A DNA stretch of 58,272 nucleotides, from assembly GCA_903929195.1 (NCBI GenBank), contig CAIYTT010000204.1:1-58272 (forward strand). Reading direction: 5' to 3'. Source of the DNA: an uncultured Bacteroidota bacterium. Lineage in GTDB: Bacteria; Bacteroidota; Bacteroidia; Chitinophagales; Chitinophagaceae. Below are positions 12,524-56,824 of the stretch, in pieces. The notes below the pieces were generated by a model, which did no database searches, had not been told where the DNA came from, and was given only the letters and a program-made list of their open reading frames with translations. Within the stretch, counting starts at the first letter, position 1; each line of letters starts with the position of its first letter. The translations under genes and the position numbers were made by a program.

Positions 12524-13978
12524 ATGCGTAGTTTTTTTGTAAAAAATATTCTTTTTGTAATAGCTGTTAATATTTTGGTTAAACCTATTTGGGTTTTTCT
12601 AATAGACCGAAATGTACAAAATTGCTTACCAAAAGGAGATTATGGCACTTATCAGGCATTGTTAAGTCTTAGTATTATTTTCCAGACAGTATTAGATTTT
12701 GGAATTACTAATTATAACAGCCGTACTATTTCTCAAAATCCGGATAAGTTATCTACTCTTTTTCCGGCTATGTTATCGGCAAGATTCGCATTGATACTCA
12801 TTTATATGTTTTTGGCATTTGGTTTGGGCTGGTTAATTGGTTATCGTGGCTGGGAACTGAATTTATTGATAGGTGTACTGCTCATACAATCGCTTAATGC
12901 ATTAGTAGCCTTTATAAGGAGTAATGTTGCGGCTTTGCATCGTTTTAAAACCGATGGATTATTATCTATAACAGATAGATTGTTGATGATTATTATATGT
13001 GGCTTTTTATTGCTTTTTCCTGCTACTGCCAAAAATTTTAAAATAGAATGGTTTGTTATAACACAAATCGTGTGTTATTTTATTTCGGCTGTTGTAGGTT
13101 ATGTAATTTTAAAACGAATTGCAAATGTGAAGCTGCATTTTTCAATACATCTACCTACTATATTAAAAATAATAAAAGATAGTTTCCCGTATGCATTGCT
13201 TATTTTCCAAATGTCTATTTATAATAGGGCTGATGCCATGATGATAGAGCGTTTGTGTGTAAATGGAAAAGAACAGGCAGATATTTGGGCTGCTGCTTTC
13301 AGGTTATTAGATGTTGCAAATATGTTTGGGCTTATGTTTGCTACCATTTTGTTACCCATGTTCGGGCGTATGTTGTCGCAAAAACAAGATGTGCAACCCA
13401 TAGTAAAATTGGGTGTAAATATGATGTTGCCGGTATCAATAATGATAGCCATAGCCGGTATTCTATTTAGCAGTGATATTATGCACTTACTTTATAAAAA
13501 TAAAGGGCACGATTGCGACAATGTATTTTCCTTTTTAATAGCTTCGTTTCCTTCTTGGTGTTTAATGTATATTTATTCTACATTACTTACAGCAAACGGA
13601 AATTTGAAAGTAATGAATGTAATTGCTTTTGCAGGTGTACTCATAAACCTATCGTTAAATTACTATTTAATTAATAACTTTGAAGCAGTGGGTGGTGCTG
13701 TAGCATCGCTTATTACACAAACTACATTGGCATTTATATTTGTAGGTATGGCAAAAAAAATATTGAAACTGCCTGTAAATATAAAATGGTTACAGGCACA
13801 TTTGGGTTATATAGTGCTTATGCTCCTAATGTATTATTGCATTAACAATTTGGGTATACTTGGCAATTTACAATGGATGCTTAAATTATTGATATTTGGC
13901 ATTATTTCATTTGGATTTATTTTTTTATTCAGGTTTATTTCTATAAAAAGCGTAAAACAACTATTTAATAAGGGATAA
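12524..13978 (+). CDS. Oligosaccharide flippase (Wzx-type, MOP superfamily)
   Basis: A 484-residue polytopic inner-membrane protein with about 12-14 hydrophobic segments. The N-terminus (NILVKPIWVFLIDRNVQN...GDYGTYQALLSLSIIFQTVLDFGI) resembles the polysaccharide biosynthesis family: a pair of helices followed by an LG-/FG-rich second helix. The second half repeats the pattern (VSIMIAIAGILFSSDIMHLLY; LINLSLNYYLINNFEAVGGAVASLITQ), as expected for the two-lobed MOP fold. It probably moves a lipid-linked glycan across the membrane, working with the divergent GT4 enzyme. Substrate unknown. Confidence 0.9.
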   Translation: MRSFFVKNILFVIAVNILVKPIWVFLIDRNVQNCLPKGDYGTYQALLSLSIIFQTVLDFGITNYNSRTISQNPDKLSTLFPAMLSARFALILIYMFLAFGLGWLIGYRGWELNLLIGVLLIQSLNALVAFIRSNVAALHRFKTDGLLSITDRLLMIIICGFLLLFPATAKNFKIEWFVITQIVCYFISAVVGYVILKRIANVKLHFSIHLPTILKIIKDSFPYALLIFQMSIYNRADAMMIERLCVNGKEQADIWAAAFRLLDVANMFGLMFATILLPMFGRMLSQKQDVQPIVKLGVNMMLPVSIMIAIAGILFSSDIMHLLYKNKGHDCDNVFSFLIASFPSWCLMYIYSTLLTANGNLKVMNVIAFAGVLINLSLNYYLINNFEAVGGAVASLITQTTLAFIFVGMAKKILKLPVNIKWLQAHLGYIVLMLLMYYCINNLGILGNLQWMLKLLIFGIISFGFIFLFRFISIKSVKQLFNKG

Positions 13979-14040
13979 AAAGTAAATGTATTTTTTCATT
14001 TAGAATTTTTCTATCTTGTAAACCTAAAACAGAAGCATTT

Positions 14041-15078
14041 ATGAGTAATCGCCGTAGGTTTATGAAATTTTCTTTATTAGGTTCGGCAGCAATTTTGGCA
14101 AGCAAGAACCTGTTTGCAGAAAGCCCCAAAAGCAAAGAAATAAAAGTAGTTAAAGATAAGCCTATCGTAATATCTACTTGGGATTTTGGTAAAGAAGCCA
14201 ATGAGGCAGCGTGGGAATTATTAGGAAAAAACGGGAGAGCTTTAGATGCCGTGGAGCGAGGAGTTAAAGTTCCGGAGGCAGACCCCAATAATCAAAGTGT
14301 AGGTTTGGGAGGGCGGCCTGATAGAGATGGGCATGTAACGCTTGATGCTTGTATTATGGACGAGAATTACAAATGCGGTTCGGTTGCTTTTTTAGAACAC
14401 ATTGTGCATCCTATATCTGTGGCTCGTATGGTTATGGAAAAAACACCACATGTAATGTTGGTAGGCGAAGGTGCTTTGCAATTTGCACTGGCAAACGGTT
14501 TTAAAAAAGAAAATTTACTTACAGATAAAAGCGAAAAAGAATGGAAAGAATGGCTTAAAGAATCAAAATACGAGCCATGGATGAATATTGAAAACGAACA
14601 TTACAGAATGAATAAAGACGGGAAACCCGGTGACGAAAAGAACCACGACACAATAGGTATGGTGGCTATGGATGCTAATGGAAATTTGAGTGGAGCCTGC
14701 ACTACAAGTGGGCTTGCTTATAAGATTAGAGGGCGTGTTGGTGATTCGCCCATTATAGGCGCCGGTTTATATGTAGATAATGAAATAGGTGCAGCAACAA
14801 GTACCGGAGTAGGCGAAGAGGTGATACGAATAGTAGGTTCGCACTTGGTTGTAGAACTAATGAGACAGGGCTTTGAGCCCGAAGCAGCTTGTAAGGAGGC
14901 TGTGGAAAGAATTATAAAACGCAATCCGGAAAATGCTAAGAAAGTACAAGTAGGTTTTTTAGCACTCAATAAAAATGGTGAGTATGGTGCTTTTGCTTTA
15001 CAGAAAGGTTTCTCGTATGCAGTTAGGAGTGCAAGTGAAAATAAAATATACAACGCACCCTATTTTTATAAAGACTAA
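14041..15078 (+). CDS. N4-(beta-N-acetylglucosaminyl)-L-asparaginase (Ntn hydrolase), exported
   Basis: A 345-residue glycosylasparaginase that cleaves the GlcNAc-Asn bond of N-glycopeptides. It has a Tat-like twin-arginine signal (SNRRRFMKFSLLGSAAIL). The family autoprocesses at the Thr of HDT|IG: here H202-D203-T204 with IGMVAMDANGNLSGACTTSG next to it, and the substrate region RVGDSPIIGAGLYVD follows. GGRPDRDG (near 91-98) is also a family mark. The predicted mature enzyme would be periplasmic. CutC follows 12 bases downstream on the same strand, so the two may form an operon. Confidence 0.93.
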   Translation: MSNRRRFMKFSLLGSAAILASKNLFAESPKSKEIKVVKDKPIVISTWDFGKEANEAAWELLGKNGRALDAVERGVKVPEADPNNQSVGLGGRPDRDGHVTLDACIMDENYKCGSVAFLEHIVHPISVARMVMEKTPHVMLVGEGALQFALANGFKKENLLTDKSEKEWKEWLKESKYEPWMNIENEHYRMNKDGKPGDEKNHDTIGMVAMDANGNLSGACTTSGLAYKIRGRVGDSPIIGAGLYVDNEIGAATSTGVGEEVIRIVGSHLVVELMRQGFEPEAACKEAVERIIKRNPENAKKVQVGFLALNKNGEYGAFALQKGFSYAVRSASENKIYNAPYFYKD

Positions 15079-15090
15079 ATTATTTCATAT

Positions 15091-15762
15091 TTGATAGTAG
15101 AAATTTGTGCCTATACTATTCAGTCGTGTTTAATTGCAGATAACGCAGAGGCTGATAGAATTGAGTTTTGTGCAAATCCTCAATTGGATGGTACTACACC
15201 TAATTTATTTGAATTAAAATATCTGTTAAACAAATTAAATATTCCTGTATTTCCTATTATAAGACCTAGAGGAGGCGATTTTGTATTTACTACATCTGAA
15301 TTAGAAACGATGGAGCAAGATTTACTGTATTGCAAACAAATGGGCTGCAAGGGTATATCTACAGGTGTTGCATTGCAAAACAATAAAATGGATATTGATA
15401 AAATGAAACATTTTGTATCATTAGCTTATCCTATGCAAGTAACTTGTCATAAGGTATTTGATAAGGTTCCCGATATGTATGAAGCAGTAGAGGGATTAAT
15501 TGAAGCCGGTGTAAACCGTATTTTAACATCAGGACTGGCGAAAGATGCCACAGCAGGCATAGAAAACATAAAGATATTAGTAGAGAAGTATGAAGATAAA
15601 ATTATTATTATGCCCGGTGGAGGTGTAAGAGCAATGAATATAGATAAATTAGTATCACAAACAGGAGCAAAAGAGTATCATAGTTCGGGTATTGTAAAAA
15701 GAGATACAAATTTTATGGCTGATGAAAGTGAGATAAGAAAAATAGTAATGCGATTGCATTAG
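15091..15762 (+). CDS. cutC: CutC family protein (copper homeostasis)
   Basis: A 223-residue TIM-barrel protein. Family marks: VEICAYTIQSCLIADNAEADRIEFCANPQ-type start (the usual form is VEVCV.S...A..A...GADRIELC), IRPRGGDFVF (near 49-58), TCHKVFDKVPD, RILTSGLAKDA, IIMPGGGVRA and EYHSSG at the end. The start is a TTG at 15091, which directly precedes IVEICAY; there is no closer ATG. The link to copper is the family name only; the enzymatic role is not established. It follows the asparaginase gene by 12 bases. Confidence 0.9.
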   Translation: MIVEICAYTIQSCLIADNAEADRIEFCANPQLDGTTPNLFELKYLLNKLNIPVFPIIRPRGGDFVFTTSELETMEQDLLYCKQMGCKGISTGVALQNNKMDIDKMKHFVSLAYPMQVTCHKVFDKVPDMYEAVEGLIEAGVNRILTSGLAKDATAGIENIKILVEKYEDKIIIMPGGGVRAMNIDKLVSQTGAKEYHSSGIVKRDTNFMADESEIRKIVMRLH

Positions 15763-16069
15763 AAATAATTCATTTAAAATTTTTATTATTTCATTCATGT
15801 TATATAATTGGTGGGTAAGTAAGCAAGTGATTTTATGTAAAGTTACTTTATTGGAAAGCAACCAATTAGCGAAGCCGGGTCTTATATTGGCTTCAGATAT
15901 ATTTGATACGTTGGCATTAAAAGAAATTGTTTTATAAATGTTCGTTTTGTTAAGACAGCTTTTGCGATAACCTTTCGGAATTAATAAATTTGATGGTTAG
16001 CAACTGCATTAACGTAACATAGCATCATCCCCATATTCAACACCCCCCCACAACTATAAAAAAGTGTGT
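15763..16069. other. 307-base gap after cutC
   Basis: Convergent region between cutC (+) and the M28 peptidase (-). It contains a 46-codon frame (15797-15937) that I do not call, a run of seven C near 16043-16049, and the hairpin that ends the peptidase gene. No other feature is visible. Confidence 0.5.
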
Positions 16070-16082
16070 TTACTTTTTTATA
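16055..16082. terminator. Hairpin at the end of the M28 peptidase gene
   Basis: Perfect 11-base inverted repeat TATAAAAAAGT / ACTTTTTTATA around a six-base loop. It overlaps the stop codon of the minus-strand peptidase gene. The stem is AU-rich, so strength is doubtful. Confidence 0.4.
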
Positions 16083-17626
16083 ATTACCGGCAATGGTTTT
16101 CTGGGTAGTTTTTCGTCTCTCATGGCTGTGTGATATACAAATGAAGCCATAATAATGGAAGCTTGCATAAGGTCGTTGGTATTCACTCTTTCATATGTAT
16201 CCATATTGGTATGGTGCGTGCGTGTACCGTAATCTAAAGGGTCTTGCAAGAATTGAAAACCGGGTATGCCTACCTCGTCAAAAGAAATATGGTCGGTAGA
16301 ACCGGTATTTCTAATTGTTACTGCTGTAGCCCCAATATCATTAAAGGGCTGCATCCAGGTTTCAAATAAAGGTCTTAATTCATCGTTCCCTTGCAGATAA
16401 ATGCCACGAATTTTACCTGCACCATTATCTAAATTAAAATAGGCTGATACTTTTTCGTGGTCCGGTTTTAATTCCATTGTTAGTCTATCGGCAAAATGAT
16501 TTTTTACATAAGCTCTTGAACCTAATAAACCTTGCTCTTCGCCACTCCATAATATAATACGTATGGTTCTACGGGGTTTAATATCCAAAGCTTTAAGTAT
16601 TCTTATAGCTTCCATTGCTACAACTGTGCCGGCACCATTGTCTGTAACGCCTGTGGCACCGTGCCAGCTATCCATATGACCACCTAATATAACTAATTCA
16701 TTTTTTAGTTTCGGGTCGGTACCCGGTATTTCGGCTACAACATTGTTTTCTATCGAATCGGTGGTTATAAATGTATTTCTAATATCCATTTCAAGTACTA
16801 CCTCTTTGCCGGCATCTAATAAGCGTACCAATCGGTTTAAGTGTTCCGCACCCATTTCCAATTCAGGTAATACCGGTTTCGCATCCCAACTGCGAGATGC
16901 ACCGTTAGATGTAAATAAAGTACCCATTGTGCCTCTGCCACCGCTTAATACAGCTAATGCACCTTCAGATAAAAGAAAAGAGTCTATCAGTTTTCTTAAG
17001 TTTGGTTTTGCTACTGCTGTTGCAGGTTTTGCATTTGTACTTGCAATACCTTCATCCAAATGAGGGTCAGTAACTATTTTTGTTAGTTCTTCTTCGGTAA
17101 GGCGTTTGGCATCGGCAGTAAAGTTTATTTTATTTTCGTTATTATTGGGTTGTAAAACAATAATCTTATCTTTTAATTTTGTTGCATATTTAGCCATATC
17201 TTGTATGCTATCTATTTTTACAAGTATGGCACTTGCATTTATTTGTCCGTTAGTGCCGGGTGTCCAAGCTTTGGGTATGGCTATTAAAGATTGGTAGTAT
17301 GGAGCAGTTATGGCAATATAGTTTTTTTGTGTCTCCCAACCTTTGCCAAAGCCGCCCCAAGGTTCAATAGCAACATTTGTTAATCCCCATTCTTCCAATC
17401 GCTTTTTTGCCCATAATTCAGCATTCTTCATTCCGGTAGAGCCGGTAAGACGCGGACCATTGCAATCGCTAAGCTGAAAAAGGGATTCCATTACTTTCGA
17501 GTTAGTAAAACCTTCTTGTTTTATTCTTACAATAGTATGAATATCTGCTTTTTCTGTTTTGTCGCCTGTAAATGAAAGGCATATAAACGAAAATAAGCTT
17601 AATATAATAAGATGCGTTTTTTTCAA
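16070..17626 (-). CDS. M28 family metallopeptidase (carboxypeptidase Q-like), secreted
   Basis: A 518-residue zinc peptidase with an N-terminal signal peptide (MKKTHLIILSLFSFICLSF). The co-catalytic zinc site is complete: H317 in GGHMDSW, D329 in VTDNGAG, the E363-E364 pair in GEEQGLLGS, D400 in NLDNG, and H446 in STDHISF. A protease-associated (PA) domain is probably inserted between residues about 120 and 260. The likely role is degradation of peptides or amino-acid conjugates in the periplasm or outside. A gap of 43 bases separates it from the SGNH-like lipoprotein gene upstream, so joint transcription is possible. Confidence 0.93.
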   Translation of the reverse strand: MKKTHLIILSLFSFICLSFTGDKTEKADIHTIVRIKQEGFTNSKVMESLFQLSDCNGPRLTGSTGMKNAELWAKKRLEEWGLTNVAIEPWGGFGKGWETQKNYIAITAPYYQSLIAIPKAWTPGTNGQINASAILVKIDSIQDMAKYATKLKDKIIVLQPNNNENKINFTADAKRLTEEELTKIVTDPHLDEGIASTNAKPATAVAKPNLRKLIDSFLLSEGALAVLSGGRGTMGTLFTSNGASRSWDAKPVLPELEMGAEHLNRLVRLLDAGKEVVLEMDIRNTFITTDSIENNVVAEIPGTDPKLKNELVILGGHMDSWHGATGVTDNGAGTVVAMEAIRILKALDIKPRRTIRIILWSGEEQGLLGSRAYVKNHFADRLTMELKPDHEKVSAYFNLDNGAGKIRGIYLQGNDELRPLFETWMQPFNDIGATAVTIRNTGSTDHISFDEVGIPGFQFLQDPLDYGTRTHHTNMDTYERVNTNDLMQASIIMASFVYHTAMRDEKLPRKPLPVIIKK

Positions 17627-17669
17627 TGTATTTATTTTTGCGTAAGTTATAGAAAATAAATAAAAAATA

Positions 17670-18707
17670 CTACTTTTTATATGTTTTATTGTAATATTCT
17701 AATTCAATCTTTGTAGGGTAATACGGTATATGTTTTCTGGATAAGTGGTTTCTGTTAGTAAAATACAAATCGGTAATATCGCCACCATTCGTATGCATAA
17801 TAACTAAATCTGGCTCGCAGTATTTTGCTTTTTCTTCAAACAATGTAAGATAATCATCTACGGTACTACTTATCATAGCAGAATTAAGAACTTCTACATT
17901 TGGCATTTGTTTTTCTAAAACATTGGTCATTATATATTCATTGTCTAAAAAGGGCGAATAGATATAGGAGCCACCTAAAATTAATACCCTTTGCTTTGTT
18001 TTAGGGAAAACAACATCGTGATTATTACGAAGTCCCTGTGCATTAGCTTGTAAATGATAAGGTAAATCTTTACCGCCATCTAAAAATTCGTCATCATGTG
18101 GTGGTAAGTCTCCGTAGGTATCCGTTCTTTCTTTATCGGCATAGGTAACAGTACATTTATCAGCACTGTGCTTTTTTATAATAGGAGTAAAAAGGGATGC
18201 AAGAAACTCAGCACCTTTTTTACTCCAATGCCCGTCTTTGGGTGCTTGTGTAATTATTTTATAATCTTGTGCAGCAATATTATCACTAAAATCATAAAGT
18301 TCAATATCATTTTGTTTACATACTTCTTTTATAAAAGGATGCCCGTATCTATTAACGGCTGTTAATTCTCTACCAACACCCGGAGAAATAATTACAACTA
18401 CAAATTTGGCTCCTGTTGCTTCAACTTCTTTTTTAAGTTTCAATAGTTGTTCTTTATACTTTGCTTTAAGTTCGTTATAAAGAGCCGATTTTTCTCCGCC
18501 ATTTTCCATAATTTTATCGTCAGGAATATCGCGGTATTCTTTATTTAATTTGTCAAGATTATCAGAATTCTTTTTTAATTCATTATAATCTTTATTGCTT
18601 ACTATTTCGTTTGGATTTAGTTTTACCGAGCCCCTACTGTCTCCACAACTATTAAAAAGGTAGAGGATGCACACTAGCCCAAGTATTTTTAAACTATTTT
18701 GTATCAT
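17670..18707 (-). CDS. SGNH-hydrolase-like lipoprotein, probable partner of the MBOAT acyltransferase
   Basis: A 345-residue protein with a lipoprotein signal (lipobox LFNSC, C21). It lies 12 bases after the MBOAT gene on the same strand, which fits the AlgI/AlgJ- or PatA/PatB-type arrangement where a membrane O-acyltransferase works with a periplasmic SGNH protein. The motifs are in an unusual order: a block-V-like DGHWSKKGAEF (DGH at 158-160) lies in the first half, while the block-I-like RVLILGGSYIYSP (GGSY 245-248) and an NGGD (307-310) lie in the second. The second half therefore looks like an SGNH domain lacking its end, and the first like the end of another. Function in polysaccharide O-acetylation is inferred from context. 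Confidence 0.75.
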   Translation of the reverse strand: MIQNSLKILGLVCILYLFNSCGDSRGSVKLNPNEIVSNKDYNELKKNSDNLDKLNKEYRDIPDDKIMENGGEKSALYNELKAKYKEQLLKLKKEVEATGAKFVVVIISPGVGRELTAVNRYGHPFIKEVCKQNDIELYDFSDNIAAQDYKIITQAPKDGHWSKKGAEFLASLFTPIIKKHSADKCTVTYADKERTDTYGDLPPHDDEFLDGGKDLPYHLQANAQGLRNNHDVVFPKTKQRVLILGGSYIYSPFLDNEYIMTNVLEKQMPNVEVLNSAMISSTVDDYLTLFEEKAKYCEPDLVIMHTNGGDITDLYFTNRNHLSRKHIPYYPTKIELEYYNKTYKK

Positions 18708-40104: not shown

Positions 40105-41106
40105 TCAGGTATTCAAACTATTTCGCCGGTTATTGTATTCAAGCAGATAGCCTCTTTTATTCTGTTCCGGCAAAAATGCTCCGGCAATCAACATCTCAAC
40201 TTTCTCCTGCCGGGTAAGAAATGGCACTATAAGCTTTTCCGCTCTCGTTACGTCAATACCAATTCTTCTTGCAAATTCAATAAAGTCAGTCTTGCCCGGG
40301 TGCATTGTATTCTTAAAAGTTTCAGATTTATAATTATCAGCAAATAATCCTTTATCCAATGCGAAATCAGAATCATCAACGTGTATCCGGGTATTCAATA
40401 AATCATAAGCCGGACTAAGGAAATAGTCTCCGTTATCATTTTCTAACAACGAAAAGTTTTTGAGGTGGGCATCTCCATTTGAGAATAAGTAATTGAATAG
40501 AATCAATGAAAAATATTTGTCCATTTCAACCCTCCAGGCAGGAACATATTTTTGAATCAGATAACCCATTTCTTCATAAGAATAAGAATACTTAAAATTA
40601 CCACCGGAGTTTAGAGAGGTTTTTCCCGCCAGTGTAGCGAAATCTTCTTTACCTCTTTTTGAGCCATCAATTTTTACATCAAATCGCCGGGTGATATAAG
40701 CAGGTTCACCGCTTTTAAAGAATATCATTCCACAGGCTGCAATATTGATGCCGTAAACCTGACTGGCAATCTGCATAGTAAGATGTTCATTAGCAGGAAC
40801 AAGGTTTACTTTTTTTAGATCCCTTGGTATAGGTTTTAGTATGTGAGTGCCGCCCTCCCCGTCCTTAGTAAGTCTCAATTTGTTTTTCTCTAAAATTAAA
40901 GACAATTTCTCTTGGACGCCTGATATTGAAATTCGTTTCCTATTGTCTAAAAATTGCTGTGTATCTATTTCATTCTTTTCAGGTGCATCATAAGGAAGTA
41001 TATGGCTTACTTTTTTGCCGTCAAATAATTTGCGTAAAGCCGAAGGGCTATACGTATTAAAACCTTTAGCCAAAGTAGAAGGACAATATTTCAATTCCAA
41101 AGTCAT
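40105..41106 (-). CDS. hipT: HipT-like serine/threonine kinase toxin (HipA C-terminal family)
   Basis: A 333-residue HipA-fold kinase lacking the N-subdomain 1, which is encoded separately by the gene before it. The Gly-rich loop carries an SIS motif: S60-I61-S62 in KRISISGVQEKLSL, the place where HipT of E. coli O127 has two autophosphorylated serines. The ATP lysine is K91 in THILKP, the catalytic loop is NGDAHLKNF (D212, K216, N217) and the metal-binding Asp is D235 in LSPAYDLLNT. All key residues are present, so the kinase looks active. HipA-family toxins phosphorylate aminoacyl-tRNA synthetases; the target here is unknown. It overlaps the HipS-like gene by four bases (ATGA). Confidence 0.88.
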   Translation of the reverse strand: MTLELKYCPSTLAKGFNTYSPSALRKLFDGKKVSHILPYDAPEKNEIDTQQFLDNRKRISISGVQEKLSLILEKNKLRLTKDGEGGTHILKPIPRDLKKVNLVPANEHLTMQIASQVYGINIAACGMIFFKSGEPAYITRRFDVKIDGSKRGKEDFATLAGKTSLNSGGNFKYSYSYEEMGYLIQKYVPAWRVEMDKYFSLILFNYLFSNGDAHLKNFSLLENDNGDYFLSPAYDLLNTRIHVDDSDFALDKGLFADNYKSETFKNTMHPGKTDFIEFARRIGIDVTRAEKLIVPFLTRQEKVEMLIAGAFLPEQNKRGYLLEYNNRRNSLNT

Positions 41107-41429
41107 AAATCTAAAGGTTTAACTGTTATTGCGCCTATGGTATCAAATTGAGCCGTTGCTGCAAGTAATCCAAAAAAATCATCTTCATCAATTTTCAATA
41201 GCTTGTTCTGTAATTTCCTATTTACACCTTCTGAAAGCATATTATAAAAGAATGGGAACAAAGTATCTGAATGATATTCCCGGTTAGTTTTTGACATTGT
41301 TAAACTGATTGCCGGTTTTTTAGTATTGTTAAAATACTGCGTATCATATTCAAAAACATAACTTCCTCTGTACTGCTCCGTTAGTGTTCCTGCCAAGATA
41401 TTATTTCGGTAAACGGCTAATTTTCTCAT
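41103..41429 (-). CDS. hipS: HipS-like antitoxin (stand-alone HipA N-subdomain)
   Basis: A 108-residue protein equivalent to the first subdomain of HipA: RNNILAGTLTEQYRGSYVFEYD, KPAISLTMSKTNREYHSDTLFPFFYNMLSEGVNRKLQNK and FGLLAATAQFDTIGAITVKP. In the HipBST system this small protein, not HipB, is the main antitoxin. Length agrees with known HipS (about 100 residues). The gene starts 4 bases after the HTH gene and overlaps the kinase gene by 4, so the three are translationally coupled. The alternative reading as a broken HipA is unlikely given the tidy overlaps and intact motifs. Confidence 0.85.
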   Translation of the reverse strand: MRKLAVYRNNILAGTLTEQYRGSYVFEYDTQYFNNTKKPAISLTMSKTNREYHSDTLFPFFYNMLSEGVNRKLQNKLLKIDEDDFFGLLAATAQFDTIGAITVKPLDL

Positions 41430-42734: not shown

Positions 42735-43564
42735 TTATTTTATAACAAGCATTTTTTGTGTGCTGCTTATTTCGCCATTTACAGTAAGATTATAATAATA
42801 GATACCTGCTTCTAACTGGGTATTATCTATCAATATAAATCCGAAACGGTTATCTACAGTATAAGATTTTATTTTTTGTCCGTAAGTATTAAAAATATCT
42901 ATTACGCCTCTTGTGGCATTTGCCGTAAGGTAAAGCATAATTTTACTTCGTTTTTAGACGGATTGGGTATGGGAGCAGGTAGGTAGTACGATTCTTTTTT
43001 TTCTGATTTTGCTAATCCAAGTCCGCCACCACAAATATCGCAGGGTAGTGTGCCGGGTAAGTTTAGTATTTGTAAGCCATTACTAGTAGTTACGGTAGCT
43101 TTAAAAGTAGTAGCGTTAATGTTATGAACCGTAAAATAATCTTGTGTAAAAAAGCCTACATGTAAAATAGAATCTACTAAGGCACCGTTTTCATTTATAA
43201 TAAAAATAGTACCGGTATCTACCGTAAAAGGTGCTTTTATATAACAGCGGGCTGTTTCTAATAAGGTATCCAGATTAAATAATGTTTCGGAGGTATAAGA
43301 GAAAAAAGTACCTTTTTCGTAACCGGGAATTATAGGGCAAACAATTGTTTTCCAAAAACTATAGTCTAAGTTATAAAAGTAAAGTGTGTCTGGAGTAATG
43401 GAAGAGGTTTGTGTTTTGTAGATTTCATATTTTTTGCCTGAGTGGCTCAGGTTTACCACTTTTGCCTGATAACTAATTGTGTTACCAAAAGTGGTATCTA
43501 TTGTAATTTGAGCGGAGGTAGATAATGTAAATGAAAGACAAATTAATACTATCAATATTTTCAT
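42735..43564 (-). pseudogene. Secreted protein with T9SS sorting domain, broken by a frameshift
   Basis: Two minus-strand frames form one gene of about 276 residues: signal peptide (MKILIVLICLSFTLSTSAQ), a beta-rich body with NINATTFKATVTTSNGLQ, a Cys pair in LPCDICGGG, and a C-terminal sorting domain that starts PAPIPNPSKNEV in the first frame and continues in the second as TANATRGVIDIFNTYGQKIKS...EAGIYYYNLTVNG. The break lies near 42925, where one base is missing (probably TTA ACG read as TTACG). The total of 830 bases is one short of a multiple of three. The premature stop is seven residues past the break, so export by T9SS would fail. May be real or a consensus error. Confidence 0.85.
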
Positions 43565-43854: not shown

Positions 43855-44853
43855 ATGACGGATAAATTAAAGAAGATAGAAAGAGAGTATGTGCTATCGG
43901 ACAGTACGGTAAATGAATATGGTTTCCGGTTATTAACATCGGGTTATTTAATAGAGGACTTTAAAAAGAACCCTATAGGATATTATATGCATCGCCGCGA
44001 GGACGGTATTGCTTTGAAATGGGATGATTTACATATTGCAGATGATAAAATTTTGGGTACACCTGTAATTAATTTAAGTAACAGCAAGGGCGAACAGCTT
44101 TTGAATGAGGCTGAAAACGGTTTTTTGAATGCTGCATCTATGGGGCATATTGTTGTTTTAGAGTACAGCACAGACCCTAAGCAAATGTTGGAGGGGCAAA
44201 CAGGTCCTACAATTACAAAATGGTATAATAAAGAATGTAGTTTAGTAGATATACCGGGTAACAGTAATTCGTTGTGCAAGTTATTTGATGCCCGTGAAAA
44301 TGAATTGAATCTATCGGATTTGAATATCGGCAAGAAAAGCATTCATTTTTTAGCTAACACAACCCATAAGTCTATTTGCGAACTATTGCAATTAGGAGCG
44401 GAAACAGATGAAAAGGCAATACTTGGCAAGGTACAATCTTTGGTTGCTAATAGTAGTAATATGGAGATAGAAAACAGTTTATTGTGTGCCGATAAAATTG
44501 ACTTGCAAAAGCAAATAGATGAAATGGCAATGTTAAGAACAAAGATTGATATTTCTGCATTGCTTAACAGAGCATTAGAAGACAAAAAGATTACCGTTGA
44601 ATTGAGAGACCGCTTGGCAATAGATTACGGTGCCAATGCAGAAGGGTTAAAAACATTGATAGCTGCTATGCCTGCCTATATAAGCATAGTTGAAAATTTA
44701 AAAGCAAGGCAACAAGAAAATGCCGAAATAGCTTGGGAATGGGATGATTTTGAACGTAATGACCCGGCAGGCAAGAAGCTTAAAGAATTGAGAGCCAATG
44801 ACCCCGATAAGTATAAGGATTTATTTGAGCGGAAATTTGGAGGAGAGGTGTAG
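43855..44853 (+). CDS. Prohead protease-like protein with scaffold-like C-terminus
   Basis: A 332-residue protein. The first half resembles caudovirus prohead serine proteases: a Phe-x-x-Asn-Pro start (DFKKNPIGYYMHRREDGIA, H46), GTPVINLSNSKGE, and GFLNAASMGHIVVLEY with the candidate catalytic serine S95. The second half is helical and charged with ALLNRALEDKKITVELRDRLA and a DPDKYKDLFERKFGGEV end, like the scaffold part of Mu gpI-type proteins. It is the first structural gene of the cluster; no portal or terminase is upstream. The insert with the DUF3825 gene separates it from the capsid gene. Confidence 0.75.
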   Translation: MTDKLKKIEREYVLSDSTVNEYGFRLLTSGYLIEDFKKNPIGYYMHRREDGIALKWDDLHIADDKILGTPVINLSNSKGEQLLNEAENGFLNAASMGHIVVLEYSTDPKQMLEGQTGPTITKWYNKECSLVDIPGNSNSLCKLFDARENELNLSDLNIGKKSIHFLANTTHKSICELLQLGAETDEKAILGKVQSLVANSSNMEIENSLLCADKIDLQKQIDEMAMLRTKIDISALLNRALEDKKITVELRDRLAIDYGANAEGLKTLIAAMPAYISIVENLKARQQENAEIAWEWDDFERNDPAGKKLKELRANDPDKYKDLFERKFGGEV

Positions 44854-44890
44854 AAGGGAGAAATATATCTCATTGTTTATTTAAAGAGGT

Positions 44891-44898
44891 TACCTTTG
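44891..44898 (+). promoter_or_regulatory. -7 promoter box for the 53-aa ORF
   Basis: TACCTTTG, fits TAnnTTTG, 36 bases before the ATG at 44935. Host-type promoters like this are rare among the structural genes. Confidence 0.5.
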
Positions 44899-44934
44899 CA
44901 AAAATAAAATTTTTATAATATGTAAGACGTAAAA

Positions 44935-45096
44935 ATGATATATAACAACTTTAATTTGGTAAACTATACCAACGTTTTACCATCATGCCCAAATGAGATA
45001 TATGTTGCTACTACAGAAGATCCAAACAGTCTTGCATTTTTAATAAAAAACAACATTATAGTTGAGTTTTCTTTTGCAAATACTATTGATGAATAA
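44935..45096 (+). CDS. Small unknown protein (53 aa) in the cargo insert
   Basis: ATG at 44935 to TAA at 45096. The 53 residues (MIYNNFNLVNYTNVLPSCPN..., LAFLIKNNIIVEFSFAN) are rich in Asn and Ile with no Lys/Arg-rich tail, signal peptide or clear membrane helix. It has its own promoter box and sits between a phage protease and a DUF3825 gene. I do not recognise it; it could be a short partner or regulator of the DUF3825 gene. Being so short, it may also be chance. Confidence 0.4.
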   Translation: MIYNNFNLVNYTNVLPSCPNEIYVATTEDPNSLAFLIKNNIIVEFSFANTIDE

Positions 45097-45143
45097 ACAA
45101 ATACATTTATTATAAAATAATTTAGGATAGTCTATTTAGTTAT

Positions 45144-45184
45144 TTTTGAAATTTGAAAAATATTTTTTGAAATTTGAAAAATAT
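45144..45184. repeat. Direct repeat in the leader of the DUF3825 gene
   Basis: The block TTTTTGAAATTTGAAAAATA occurs twice in immediate succession (about 45144-45163 and 45165-45184). Its function is unknown; tandem copies just before a transcribed region could be a regulator-binding array. Confidence 0.6.
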
Positions 45185-45194
45185 TTATAACCTT

Positions 45195-45400
45195 TGCAGT
45201 TACAATCTTTGCAAGAAATGCAATTAAAAGAAAGATTCACACATTAAGAAATTCACAAATAAGTTTTAAAAACTAAAGACTTTAAAAAAGCAAGAAAAAA
45301 AGTAAAAAACAAGAATCCGATTAAAAAACTAAGTCTTAAAAAAGTAGAGAAAAAAACATAAAAGTCTTAAAAAAGCCTCGTGAAAAGCGAGGCTTTAAAT
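45195..45400 (+). ncRNA. Candidate small RNA or long leader before the DUF3825 gene
   Basis: About 200 bases without a supported ORF, beginning after two TTTGCA boxes (ACCTTTGCA and ATCTTTGCA, close to the -7 consensus), rich in A with TTAAAAAAG four times, and ending in the hairpin AAAGCCTCG-TGAAAAG-CGAGGCTTT. The layout (promoter-like boxes, body, intrinsic-terminator-like hairpin) suits a small RNA, but an attenuator or a degraded gene would look similar. Basis is inference from layout only. Confidence 0.3.
45372..45396 (+). terminator. GC-rich hairpin directly before the DUF3825 gene
   Basis: A perfect 9-base stem AAAGCCTCG/CGAGGCTTT with a 7-base loop, 24 bases before the DUF3825 ATG. 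It could end a small RNA or act as an attenuator. The T-run after it is short (TTTAAATTT). Confidence 0.6.
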
Positions 45401-45420
45401 TTAAAATCATGAGAAATTAA

Positions 45421-46209
45421 ATGGCAAAAGAAGATAAAAAGAATATTCCGCTTTTTGAATATGGTTATTGTGGTAATTTTGAGACTACATTAAATTTATT
45501 GAAGGATTTGGCAATGCCAGAAATATGGGAATATAAAAGAACACCAAATGAAAAAGCTTTACCAATTCTTTTTAGTTATCTGTTACATACATTCACACGA
45601 ATAAAAGAGGAAAATAAAATAGCTGAAAAAGATAATTATTCTTGTTTTAATACTGGCTTGGTAACCGAAAATCAACAAGAGATATTTATGCTTTTTAAAG
45701 AAAATCCAACAAAAGGTAAGCAATTCATTGAATTTTGTAAAGAAAGTGATAATAATTTGGCGAGATTTTCATCATTACCAGAAAGGGCTAGTTATTTTAA
45801 TAATCCTGCTGATTTAATAATTGATTTTAGATTACCTATAAGAATAAATATTGATCATATTATTGAAGATAGAGGAAATTTTGCTCGTTTCCCGAAATAT
45901 ATACAATCATTACCTAAATTACAATTAATACATACATTTAATGGGGCAATTGATCATGCCCAAAAACGTGTTAAACGCAACTATAAAACTGCAATACCTC
46001 AATATTACCGAAACACTTTTTTCCCCGATACTCCTCAATTACAATTGCTTCTGCCATTATGTTTAACTGATGCAAAGACAGCAGACTTAGCATTAGCAAT
46101 TTATAAAGAAGGTGATTTTTATTCCGGTAGAACCTGCCTTACTTTAGATATGGCAATTAATAATGCAAGATTAATTGCTAAACCGGATGATGAATGGCTT
46201 AAAGCATAA
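45421..46209 (+). CDS. DUF3825 domain protein (probable RNA-related / conflict-system function)
   Basis: 262 residues of a soluble protein. It resembles DUF3825: LLKDLAMPEIWEYKRTPNEKALPILFSYLLHTF (residues about 24-56), a SCFNTGLVTENQQEIFMLF block, then LPERASYFNNPADLIIDFRLPIRINIDHIIEDRGNFARFP (about 120-160), which holds the conserved Asp, His and Arg. From memory DUF3825 occurs alone or with OST-HTH (LOTUS) RNA-binding domains, often near defence or conflict genes; the activity is unknown. Here it is single-domain and lies between the phage protease and capsid genes, in the same direction. The preceding mini-frame (ATGAGAAATTAA) abuts its start codon. Confidence 0.75.
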   Translation: MAKEDKKNIPLFEYGYCGNFETTLNLLKDLAMPEIWEYKRTPNEKALPILFSYLLHTFTRIKEENKIAEKDNYSCFNTGLVTENQQEIFMLFKENPTKGKQFIEFCKESDNNLARFSSLPERASYFNNPADLIIDFRLPIRINIDHIIEDRGNFARFPKYIQSLPKLQLIHTFNGAIDHAQKRVKRNYKTAIPQYYRNTFFPDTPQLQLLLPLCLTDAKTADLALAIYKEGDFYSGRTCLTLDMAINNARLIAKPDDEWLKA

Positions 46210-46534
46210 CAATAAATCTATAAACTTCTACAATAACAAATAATTGAGGGTAGGATTTTTATAAGTAATTTACTTGTGTTTGTTCTCTACCGGGATACCT
46301 AATAATTACGTTTACCTAAGAAGTATTAGCTTGATAAACTAAAAACAGTTTTGTTTTTACGCAACCACTACCCGGAACATGATTTTTATTATTTATTGTA
46401 GCACGACATCCGCATAATATTACCAAATATATATATGTAAAATTAATATACAGGTTTAATTTCAGGATAGTATAATACCGCTTCCAATACAATTTTAGTA
46501 ATTACAATTTTTATTCACAAAACAATCACAAACA
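46210..46534. other. 325-base gap between DUF3825 gene and capsid gene
   Basis: AT-rich, with no ORF, no good TAnnTTTG box and no clear hairpin. It probably holds the ribosome entry and maybe the promoter of the capsid gene. I see nothing else. Confidence 0.5.
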
Positions 46535-47449
46535 ATGGCTATTCAAAGAGAGATATGGGAAAACCATATTGAGGGTAATTTATTTAAGAACAATGAGTTC
46601 TTACTGGCTTCTACTGATGCAAGTCAATTTGTATTGCAAGGTAAGGTTGTGCATATACCGCAAGCAGGTGCTACACCCAATGTTGTAAAAAACAGAACAT
46701 CGGTACCGGCTACGGTGGTACAAAGAGGCGATACGGATATTACTTATTCGCTTGACGAGTATAGTACCGACCCCATTTTAATACCTAATGCTGATGTGTA
46801 TGAATTGAGCTACAACAAAAGAGAGAGTGTACTTAATGAATATGAGTCGTCTTTAAGACAAACGATTGCCGACAATTTATTAGTAAACTGGTCGCCAAGC
46901 GGTAGTACAGGTTTAATAATGAGAACAAGCGGTGCAAGTGTACTAACCACATTAGACGGCACTACCGGTAACAGGAAGAAGTTTGTAGTACAGGATTTAA
47001 AAAATGCCCAAAACCAGTTAAACAAACAGAATATACCAATGGAAAGCAGGTATGCATTAATTAGTTCTGATATGTTTCAGCAATTGACCGATGATATGAG
47101 TGCTACCCAATATCGTGATTTTAGTGCAGCTTACGATGTAAAAGAAGGTATTATAGGTCGTTTGTTTGGTTTTAATATTATGATGCGCAGCGGTGTTGTT
47201 ACTTATACCAACGATACTGCACCTGTAGTAAATGCAAGCGGAACTACGTTAGCAGCTACAGATAATGATGGTGTTTTATGCTGGCATACAGGTGCGGTAG
47301 AAAGAGCTATAGGGCAAATTAAATTTTTTGAACACGTAGGAGACCCTGTTTATTATGGCGATGTGTATAGTGTACTTGTGAGAATGGGTGCAAGAATACG
47401 CAGACAAGATGCTAAAGGGATTGTAGCAATAGTGCAGGCAGCAGCCTAA
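46535..47449 (+). CDS. Phage major capsid protein (HK97-fold type)
   Basis: A 304-residue protein. Its pattern is that of tailed-phage coat proteins: N-terminal arm (AIQREIWENHIEGNLFKNNEFLLASTD), an E-loop/P-domain region with VHIPQAGATPNVVKNR and YSLDEYSTDPILIPNADVYELSYNKRESVL, a middle domain LISSDMFQQLTDDMSATQYRDFSAAYDVKEGIIGRLFGFNIMMRSGV and the closing YYGDVYSVLVRMGARIRR. The block SRYALISSDMFQQL then GRLFGFNI is typical of coat proteins of this type. It is the second recognisable head gene; no head-tail connector follows. Confidence 0.82.
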   Translation: MAIQREIWENHIEGNLFKNNEFLLASTDASQFVLQGKVVHIPQAGATPNVVKNRTSVPATVVQRGDTDITYSLDEYSTDPILIPNADVYELSYNKRESVLNEYESSLRQTIADNLLVNWSPSGSTGLIMRTSGASVLTTLDGTTGNRKKFVVQDLKNAQNQLNKQNIPMESRYALISSDMFQQLTDDMSATQYRDFSAAYDVKEGIIGRLFGFNIMMRSGVVTYTNDTAPVVNASGTTLAATDNDGVLCWHTGAVERAIGQIKFFEHVGDPVYYGDVYSVLVRMGARIRRQDAKGIVAIVQAAA

Positions 47450-55210: not shown

Positions 55211-55233
55211 TGGGGGAAAAAGTAGAATATGGA

Positions 55234-55456
55234 TTAATATCTATCTTCAATAATTGAATCGCTTAGGGAACCTGTGTAATTTTCAAGTACTTTTTGGCTT
55301 TTTGCAAATGAAAAATCACTTAGCATTAATTTGTTTTTTTTCTGCTATTTCAATGTTTTCTAAAAATGTTACAATTACTTTTACAGGTGCATCTGTTGAT
55401 AATTCTTTATCTAATTTAATAAACCTATTTTGATATGTACCTACCACACTAATCAT
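55234..55456 (-). pseudogene. Antitoxin-like small protein gene, frameshifted in an A8 run
   Basis: The minus strand encodes MISVVGTYQNRFIKLDKELS, then DAPVKVIVTFLENIEIAEK in the first frame, and MLSDFSFAKSQKVLENYTGS, SLSDSIIEDRY in the second. Joined, this is the pattern of small Bacteroidota antitoxins (GTY.NG.I.LD..LP.D.PVKVIVTFLE followed by a toxin-binding LSDFSFAKS helix). The frames are linked if one A is removed from the run of eight (55334-55341 as T on the plus strand). The 223 bases are one above a multiple of three. No toxin gene is adjacent. A promoter lies 17 bases upstream. Confidence 0.72.
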
Positions 55457-55473
55457 AATACCATTATTTAATA

Positions 55474-55481
55474 CAAAGTTA
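55474..55481 (-). promoter_or_regulatory. -7 promoter box for the antitoxin-like gene
   Basis: TAACTTTG on the minus strand, 17 bases before the ATG at 55456. Confidence 0.5.
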
Positions 55482-55525
55482 CAAACTTTTTTTAGAATGT
55501 CTATGAAACGATAACAGAATATTAT

Positions 55526-55533
55526 AGATTTGC
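55526..55533 (+). promoter_or_regulatory. -7 promoter box for the J-domain gene
   Basis: TAGATTTG ends 23 bases before the TTG start at 55557 and is divergent from the antitoxin promoter. Confidence 0.5.
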
Positions 55534-55556
55534 AAGAGGTAAATTAAACTATTAAT

Positions 55557-56261
55557 TTGAAAGATTATTACTATATATTAGGTATTGAGAAGCATGCTAC
55601 GGATGAACAGGTAAAATCTGCGTATAAAAAGTTGGCTGTTAAATTCCATCCTGATAAAAATAATGGTGATAAATTCTTTGAAGAACGGTTTAAAGATATA
55701 CAAGAGGCTTACGAAACGTTAAGCGACCCTATACTGAAACGAAACCATGATGCTACTCTTAAAAACAATACGAACTATGGCAATACCAATACAGGTAAAG
55801 CTTATGAAGAGGAACTAAAGCGTAAGGAGCGAGAACACCAAGAGGAATTAAGGCGGCAGCAAAGAGAACATGAAGACGAACTGAGACAAAAGGAAGAGGA
55901 GCTAAAAAGAAAATACCAAACACCCGAACAAAGAGCTGCCGAAGAAGCAGCAATGAAAAAAGAACAAGAAGAACAGCGGAAGCAGCAAGAAAACAACAGA
56001 AAGATTGCCGAATTAGAACGGCTGAATTATAGACTTAAAAAAGCAAATAGTGAGCTTGCGGAACTAAATACTAACGTTGTAACCAAAACTGATGAAATAA
56101 AACAAATAGAACATGATATAAAGAATATTGGGTATAAGGGGAAATGGAAAGAGAAGGAAAAAGAAGTAGATGAAATTGCTTATAACATTCTTATATTGTG
56201 TTTTATTATTTTTCTTTTAATATTAATTCCATTTTTTAAATCGGTTATTGAAAGGGTTTAA
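55557..56261 (+). CDS. Membrane-anchored J-domain protein
   Basis: 234 residues. The J-domain is complete: [34 protein letters not shown] with the HPD triad at 31-33, then [17 protein letters not shown] long charged coiled coil (about 80-195, rich in Glu, Lys, Gln and Arg with [20 protein letters not shown]) follows, and one transmembrane helix (about 210-228, [20 protein letters not shown]) at the C-terminus. No Gly/Phe or zinc domain. Start is TTG, right after a promoter box. It would recruit DnaK at the membrane. It is not a phage structural gene and is one of two cargo genes here. Confidence 0.87.
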
Positions 56262-56334
56262 ACTTCATTTCATATTAGGTTATTTACTGAAAATATAAAT
56301 AATAAATTACTGTGTTTCTAAAAACCTAAATACT

Positions 56335-56565
56335 ATGCCCACCTATACAATAAGTACCAATGAAACCGCTTTAGATATTACGATTATGGCGAGTGGCACT
56401 TTAGAAAACGCTATGTTACTAATGGCTGCTACTAATACTTCTATTTCTGCATTGCCGGTTGCCGGTTTTACATTTATAATACCGGATACGATACTGCCTG
56501 ATGCTGAGACTCTGCTTTACTTACAACAAAATGGTATTGTATTAGGTACTAAGGGTGGTTTGTAA
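56335..56565 (+). CDS. gpX-like small baseplate protein (LysM-like)
   Basis: 76 residues, TISTNETALDITIMASGTLENAMLLMAATNTSISALPVAGFTFIIPD. The pattern resembles P2 gpX/LysM-like tail proteins (T...D.l..iA....G.......n......l..G..l.iP). In P2 gpX is a small tail protein with a LysM fold. Placement just before the J-like baseplate gene agrees. It resumes the structural cluster after the cargo. Confidence 0.6.
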   Translation: MPTYTISTNETALDITIMASGTLENAMLLMAATNTSISALPVAGFTFIIPDTILPDAETLLYLQQNGIVLGTKGGL

Positions 56566-56824
56566 AGAAAATTAAAAAAGCTCCATCTAAGCCCGTCCTT
56601 CCGCCCTTCAGCGGTATCCCAACAGGATTGGCAATTAGGTTGTATATACTTGTTGTTAAGACAGCTTGCAGACCATCGGGGGATTCCGCGAAAAAGCGGA
56701 ATGACGAATTTTTTGGTCGGACTGGTGCATTGTTTGTTTTGTTTCGTACTTTAATTTTGTAATGCTTGGTTCTATTTTAGTTTCTTCTTTTCAATAATAC
56801 ACATCTAAAAATCCAATTTCACCT
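56566..56824. repeat. 259-base gap with REP-like palindrome
   Basis: Contains a GC-rich element around 56675-56710: a run GGGGGATTCCGC, a spacer, and GCGGAATGACG, forming the arms ATTCCGC/GCGGAAT, a common dispersed repeat core (the GTCATTCCGC type). A further GC-rich stretch lies at about 56588-56625. No gene. Confidence 0.65.

Follow-up and report, generated by a model that had tools for sequence, protein, structure and literature searches.

Locus and insertion site

The stretch of DNA analyzed here (the window) is a whole contig of 58,272 bases from a genome of 4.19 Mb in 244 contigs, and the subject of this report is an insert of about 1.63 kb (44854–46483) that carries a DUF3825 gene between two phage head genes. 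On the left of the insert lies a prohead protease-like gene (43855–44853, + strand; phrog_11321, E = 1.3e-55), which matches the Mu-like_Pro family PF10123 at E = 0.001 only, below the family cut-off, and on the right a major capsid protein gene (46535–47449, + strand; phrog_267, E = 1.3e-32). The DUF3825 gene between them (45421–46209, + strand) encodes a protein of 262 amino acids that matches PF12873 with E = 3.6e-74 (249.8 bits against a cut-off of 27, over profile positions 1–238 of 238) and phrog_11623 with E = 1.7e-55, confirming the initial annotation of DUF3825 cargo between protease and capsid genes, each gene lying where it had been placed. That annotation also held that the two head genes are normally adjacent and that the gene separating them is variable cargo, and both views are upheld by the relatives having both head genes, namely 12 viral contigs (L004–L015) and the genomes G001, G002, G003, and G035. 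The protease-to-capsid gap, 1,681 bp in the window, is about 72–335 bp in all 16 of them as measured between alignment ends, and none of the 16 contains a DUF3825 homologue in the gap. The spacing in the window is thus unusual beside that of its relatives. Other cargo at this site, which that annotation had proposed looking for, was not seen, there being no insert of comparable size in the 16 relatives. Relatives of the capsid gene were found in 12 viral contigs and in five genomes besides the genome of the window itself (59 genomes searched, own included); one of these, G023, was omitted from the gap count because the protease was undetectable there.

The clearest comparison is with G002, a genome of the same genus, in which the protease-like gene is 96% identical. 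Flank homology runs up to window position 44853 (94.0% DNA identity) and resumes from 46484 (95.3%), both ends being sharp; 173 bp separate the protease and capsid flanks in G002, and about 119 unrelated bp stand where the window holds the insert. Because the flanks end sharply and the gene to the left of the protease (42902–43564) is also shared, at 92%, G002 looks like the same site without cargo. These breakpoints delimit the insert, together with its composition and its matches: it is AT-rich (26.9% G+C versus 38.1% in the two flanking genes), and its full length is matched only in its own genome among the 59, every other match being at most 55 nt. DUF3825 is also rare in the surrounding taxa. 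Besides the own genome, which is included in each total, there was one weak match among the 59 relatives, 4 matches among the 396 genomes of the order sample, 12 among 395 in the class sample (one very weak), and, in the phylum sample of 395, 6 (one of them under the family cut-off). The empty site in relatives and this rarity lead us to regard DUF3825 as cargo and not as a core gene of the phage.

Layout of the leader upstream of DUF3825

A Bacteroidota-type promoter is predicted at 45166–45196 (+ strand), with TTTG at 45166–45169, a spacing of 19 nt, and AACCTTTG at 45189–45196; the latter agrees in five of the six fixed bases with TAnnTTTG, the consensus of Bacteroidota promoters. There follows a predicted A-rich non-coding RNA of about 190 nt (45203–45400, + strand), whose start and end we infer, and within which no open reading frame (ORF) of at least 40 amino acids occurs on the + strand. 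Its 3′ part contains a terminator-like hairpin of 8 bp (45374–45394, + strand), followed by the T-tract TTTAAATTT and situated 26 nt before the DUF3825 ATG. A similar layout is seen in the three loci L094, L095, and L096. The initial annotation had described this region as a repeat-rich leader, which is correct insofar as it holds a perfect 21-bp tandem repeat (45143–45186, + strand; score 88) and imperfect A-rich repeats; what that description missed is the second promoter and the non-coding-RNA appearance, which give the leader the look of a small-RNA gene. The tandem repeat overlaps the upstream part of the predicted promoter and is a possible operator.

DUF3825 protein

In Pfam, searched up to E = 1, the window protein matches DUF3825 alone. 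Toxin families of the ToxN/CptN/TenpN type gave no match in Pfam or in PADLOC (both up to E = 1), PADLOC returning nothing at all, a sequence search against solved structures gave none either, and an open-access literature search, with subscription papers, preprints, and supplements outside its scope, returned no paper naming DUF3825 or PF12873. Structure prediction, which had been recommended at the outset, was carried out and yielded a confident AlphaFold (AF2) model with a predicted local distance difference test (pLDDT) score of 94.3. When the whole model was submitted to VIA-align, toxins of the ParE, RelE, YoeB, HigB, YafQ, and CdiA types ranked first, aligned with residues 137–251 (best Z 5.7 over 95 residues, root-mean-square deviation (rmsd) 4.5); when the N-terminal 128 residues were predicted alone, ParE, HigB, and RelE again ranked first (Z 4.5 over 87 residues, rmsd 4.1), with an alignment spanning residues 8–117. 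Although these are weak scores (Z 4–6), the RelE/ParE likeness is worth testing because two different parts of the protein, represented by the whole model and by the separately modelled N-terminal half, rank the same toxin families first. The DUF3825 protein is perhaps composed of two RelE/ParE-like halves. Among the residues invariant across 82 rows are W36, G79, L80, R156, P193, P212, Y234, T238, N248, R250, and W259, and H146 and N153 are almost invariant.

The association with OST-HTH domains that had been attributed to the family could not be substantiated, since no OST-HTH domain was fused to DUF3825 in any of the 12 longer homologues scanned (E up to 0.01); the accessible text of the OST-HTH paper speaks of DUF88 and DUF2384 (PMC2848206). 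The fused domain actually seen was the cold-shock domain (CSD), which binds nucleic acids, present in one or two copies in five of the 12 (L156, L162, L208, L076, and L159).

RNAs adjoining DUF3825 genes in three clades

Comparison of the relatives' sequences establishes that a clade-specific predicted RNA adjoins the DUF3825 gene. Three RNA types, labelled PK, DN, and AR, each fall within one clade of the protein tree, with support of 100/97, 99/96, and 100/100, respectively; the labels had been given before the tree was made, from the same loci, and 59 of the 92 tree rows carry none.

In clade PK, a promoter is followed by a stem-loop, whose GUCUAU-like loop is conserved, and then by an A-rich linker, a terminator, and the gene; a strict promoter pattern lies upstream in 10 of 16 cases. 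Over 17 rows, 98.2% of the cells of a two-helix structure are paired, versus 87.4% in shuffles, and stem S2 covaries, showing changes on both sides in five of its six pairs. Because the rows were picked by a regular expression that fixed one S2 base and the greater part of helix S1 (L151 being added by eye), the free evidence lies in the other S2 columns only. The loop could pair with an upstream AGAC or AGAU, and an H-type pseudoknot is therefore put forward as a suggestion. Among later-fetched genes at least 66% identical to PK proteins and having upstream DNA, the RNA was present in three of four (L213, L214, and L215; 107–83 bits), L215 being a broken gene; for L209, about 90% identical to PK, upstream DNA was lacking. 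A search of a 296-genome sample with the PK model R1 under strict filters returned a single match, in G308 beside its DUF3825 gene, and none in the 295 others; as the G308 RNA was itself part of the model, this result adds only the absence elsewhere.

In clade DN, the gene comes first, and the unit after it runs from a promoter through an RNA of about 90–130 nt to a terminator, the words AAGAUA and UUUAAA recurring in the RNA. Of the 14 DN rows, 12 have a downstream RNA with its own promoter, and 11 have a strict promoter that begins 5–31 nt past the stop codon, as compared with 1 of 16 in PK, 0 of 4 in AR, and 36 of 2,338 background windows (Fisher p = 2e-17 for DN versus background). A TAnnTTTG box also follows the stop codon in two unlabelled members of this clade, L097 and L106, the latter without the strict promoter. 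Clade AR consists of the window, L094, L095, and L096 (protein identity to the window 59–67%), with an upstream A-rich RNA and a hairpin about 24–69 nt before the start, as read by eye, and with the strict promoter pattern in two of the four, the window not being one of these.

Taking all loci together, a hairpin with a T-rich tail 10–45 nt before the start precedes 15 of 141 DUF3825 genes versus 4 of 237 other genes at the same loci (Fisher p = 2.9e-4, the sequences being related and hence not independent). These 15 are 13 genes of clade PK (13 of its 17), the window gene, and that of L094, for which the start used was one codon late.

Predicted mechanism and alternative explanations

The reading that we prefer, at a chance we put a little short of even, is that DUF3825 is a mobile toxin-like protein restrained by an RNA, in the manner of type III toxin–antitoxin systems or of AbiF/RCd22. 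In the predicted mechanism, the insert would be a mobile two-part cassette, composed of a small non-coding RNA gene (about 45203–45400) and then the DUF3825 gene. The RNA would be transcribed from its own promoter, mostly stopping at the hairpin right before the gene, and read-through past the hairpin would yield a little DUF3825 mRNA. The protein would be an RNA-cleaving or RNA-binding toxin with two RelE/ParE-like halves, to which the RNA would bind, thereby restraining it; if transcription were upset, as a second phage might do, the supply of RNA would fail and the DUF3825 protein would act. We infer RNA production from the window, toxin activity, RNA binding, and phage defense alike. The RNA-restrained reading is suggested by the layout of the window, with a near-consensus promoter, an A-rich non-coding stretch, and a hairpin 26 nt before the ATG, by the enrichment of terminator-like hairpins before DUF3825 starts, by the covarying PK stem-loop and the recovery of its RNA in L213, L214, and L215, by the promoter–RNA–terminator unit following the DN genes and the distribution of three RNA types over three supported clades, by the RelE/ParE fold ranks together with the cold-shock-domain fusions, and by the lack of both a recurrent protein partner and a clear anti-terminator.

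The nearest working precedent for such a cassette is AbiF/RCd22 of the Clostridioides difficile prophage phi027, composed of an Abi_2 protein and the abiF RNA; according to the accessible text of the report, the gene is preceded by a short structured RNA that lies between a promoter and a terminator, no promoter is predicted between terminator and gene, and the RNA restrains the AbiF protein both in cis and in trans (PMC12373285). The two have in common a phage-borne gene placed after a promoter, an RNA, and a terminator, which in the window are predicted, the last being a terminator-like hairpin. They differ in the protein, Abi_2 versus DUF3825, and in the downstream position of the RNA in clade DN; no Abi_2 domain was found in the window protein (Pfam), and no abiF RNA (RF03085) in window positions 44800–46600 at E up to 1. 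Type III systems (ToxIN, CptIN, and TenpIN), in which an endoribonuclease is neutralized through binding of the antitoxin RNA, are defined, as far as the accessible text of the source goes, by ToxN-type toxins, a terminator, and tandem repeats, in the order promoter, RNA, Rho-independent terminator, and toxin gene (PMC5086642). The gene order as predicted, a predicted RNA hairpin or pseudoknot, and a link with phages and plasmids are shared with the DUF3825 cassettes, whereas DUF3825 lacks a ToxN-type family match, has RelE/ParE fold ranks, and can have its RNA downstream; in place of the type III tandem array, there is a single stem-loop in PK and there are imperfect, near-chance repeats in the window. 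By analogy, the DUF3825 cassette may work like a type III system while standing outside ToxIN, CptIN, and TenpIN membership. The likeness to the RelE/ParE superfamily (type II) lies in the first VIA-align ranks of both the whole model and the N-terminal half alone, and the difference in the perhaps two halves within a 262-residue chain, the weak scores, and the missing recurrent protein partner.

Several findings weigh against this reading. On the protein side, Foldseek found nothing at E < 0.001, the BFVD fold search included, its top rows by E-value for the whole model being NTF2-like chains (E = 0.018, template modelling (TM) score 0.18), and the structural Z-scores do not exceed 5.7, VIA-align itself warning that Z < 8 may reflect merely a common arrangement. 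At the window locus, the leader promoter fails the strict pattern, and the hairpin, with its weak T-tract, passes one terminator pattern and goes unreported by another terminator scan. The repeated-word count of the predicted RNA is near chance (3 versus 1.0 expected, 17 of 300 shuffles being as high), neither RNA model (R1 or R2) matches it, and the argument for it draws on the architecture and the three closest relatives, with no proven conserved motif. Among those relatives, the L096 hairpin has no T-tract. In clade PK, helix S1 is nearly invariant and gains no support from covariation (104 of 500 shuffles as high); L219, at 70% identity to a PK protein, has no PK-type RNA, and of three genes at 51–54% to PK, two (L207 and L212) are preceded by a different hairpin RNA, and in one (L217) none was seen. 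Beyond PK, DN, and AR, a screen confined to the flanks recognized no comparable RNA.

The R2 model search did not show the window RNA to be homologous with the RNAs that follow the DN genes, and gave only E = 0.58–0.6 for the leader of L095. Stray R2 matches occurred elsewhere in L094 (E = 0.006) and in G272 (E = 0.003). No Rfam family reaches its gathering score beside the window gene, where three weak matches lie on the other strand only.

One alternative is that DUF3825 transcription is controlled in cis by the leader, acting as an attenuator or riboswitch, with no RNA partner involved. The terminator directly 5′ of the gene in PK and the hairpin likewise placed in the window are what such a device would show, and the comparably placed RNA of AbiF/RCd22 acts in cis too, according to the accessible text (PMC12373285). 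We nevertheless consider it unlikely, and reject a purely cis-acting leader because the DN RNA, which follows the gene and has a promoter and terminator to itself, is not placed to serve as a 5′ attenuator. Anti-terminator pairing also gave no clear case: 1 of 14 RNAs reached p < 0.05 and the median p was 0.27, four of the 18 RNAs having been dropped when the script found no terminator in them. An equally improbable explanation is that DUF3825 is a stand-alone phage or plasmid accessory gene, serving in exclusion, counter-defense, or otherwise, the RNAs beside it being gene ends or small RNAs with no connection to it. It accords with the failure of the screen to recognize comparable RNAs outside the three clades, with L217 and L219 being without one, and with the setting of the copy in Listeria phage A006, which is flanked by the lysin gene and an HNH gene and is two genes away from AcrIIA1; it is opposed by the strong support with which RNA type tracks protein clade and by the covariation of the PK stem-loop. 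Least favored is an RNA-guided or RNA-activated effector, in which the RNA is an active cofactor instead of an inhibitor: the adjoining RNA in three clades and the cold-shock-domain fusions are compatible with it, and the data fit cofactor and inhibitor roles alike, but nothing like a variable guide was noticed in the aligned RNAs (no dedicated test was made), the fold ranks are those of toxin families, and the order RNA–terminator–gene is that of inhibited systems in the accessible texts of the sources (PMC12373285, PMC5086642).

We also put forward a wider proposal, which we consider somewhat less likely than its contrary. DUF3825 would be the protein half of a widespread, undescribed RNA–protein family resembling toxin–antitoxin systems, borne on phages, plasmids, and chromosomes, in which a double RelE-like toxin is paired with small RNAs that clades have swapped or rebuilt and that can lie 5′ or 3′ of the gene; one such cassette would have landed in the head operon of the window phage. 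Such a family would be a new type of RNA-held toxin, the RNA lying before or after the gene, and would widen type III toxin–antitoxin biology beyond ToxN-like and Abi_2 proteins. The adjacent RNA makes the function of DUF3825 cheaply testable, through growth arrest by the protein and rescue by its own RNA.

Distribution and neighbors of DUF3825

As judged from sequence matches, DUF3825 travels on phages, plasmids, and genomes. Relatives were found in 7 phage records and in 44 plasmid records (35 of them from Campylobacter). Two scans of viral contigs, which overlap, gave 52 and 50 contigs with a relative, and matches in genomes came to 275 stretches from many phyla, the best 80 of which were retained. 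On a 3.1-kb Enterobacter plasmid, the gene lies beside genes for Rop, an HTH protein, and a replication protein, and in a Streptococcus phage it stands 3′ of the lysin gene, separated from it by one small ORF. DUF3825 may also move as an integron cassette in Pseudomonadota. An attC-like end lies downstream of the gene in L134 (by a loose pattern) and in L139 (by eye); L113, L126, and L142 match the loose pattern too and look less convincing.

The conflict context attributed to the family at the outset finds support at some loci, where defense-like genes occur as single neighbors (Abi_2/AbiD, an oligonucleotide cyclase, AbiEi, a type I specificity subunit, and YoeB). No protein partner recurs, the commonest Pfam family being phage integrase, with 3 of the 124 neighbors scanned (out of 146 of at least 110 amino acids; the 22 omitted were mainly long ones). 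Rfam families in the relatives were just RNAI, c4-2, and tRNA away from the gene, plus three abiF RNAs (RF03085) in L103 (519–2589), a DN locus. These three lie upstream of the L103 DUF3825 gene, all within 3 kb, and that gene is in turn followed by an RNA of its own; L103 would represent a cluster of RNA-linked systems.

Other features of the window

At the left end of the insert, the initial annotation had pointed to a 53-residue ORF (44935–45096, + strand) with a host-type promoter. A perfect TAnnTTTG box does lie 5′ of it (44891–44898), but a TTG is just 15 nt upstream of the box, and family and relative searches found neither a family nor a relative for the ORF, which may not be a gene.

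Farther along, a DnaJ-domain gene (55557–56261) occupies a 1.6-kb gap (55211–56824) whose flanking genes are about 270 bp apart in G001 (L203); the phage may thus carry cargo at a second site. To the left of the phage genes, at a distance of 2.4 kb, is a HipA-like pair (HipA_C and Couple_hipA; 40105–41429). The idea that the phage has no terminase and portal was dropped, since homologues were found on contig C87 of its own genome (G000), where positions 13591–17970 hold terminase and portal relatives of a Porphyromonas Mu-like phage; this region is perhaps the rest of the window phage. The position of the terminase varies among the relatives, being near and divergent from the protease in G035 and G003, and after the tail genes in G001.
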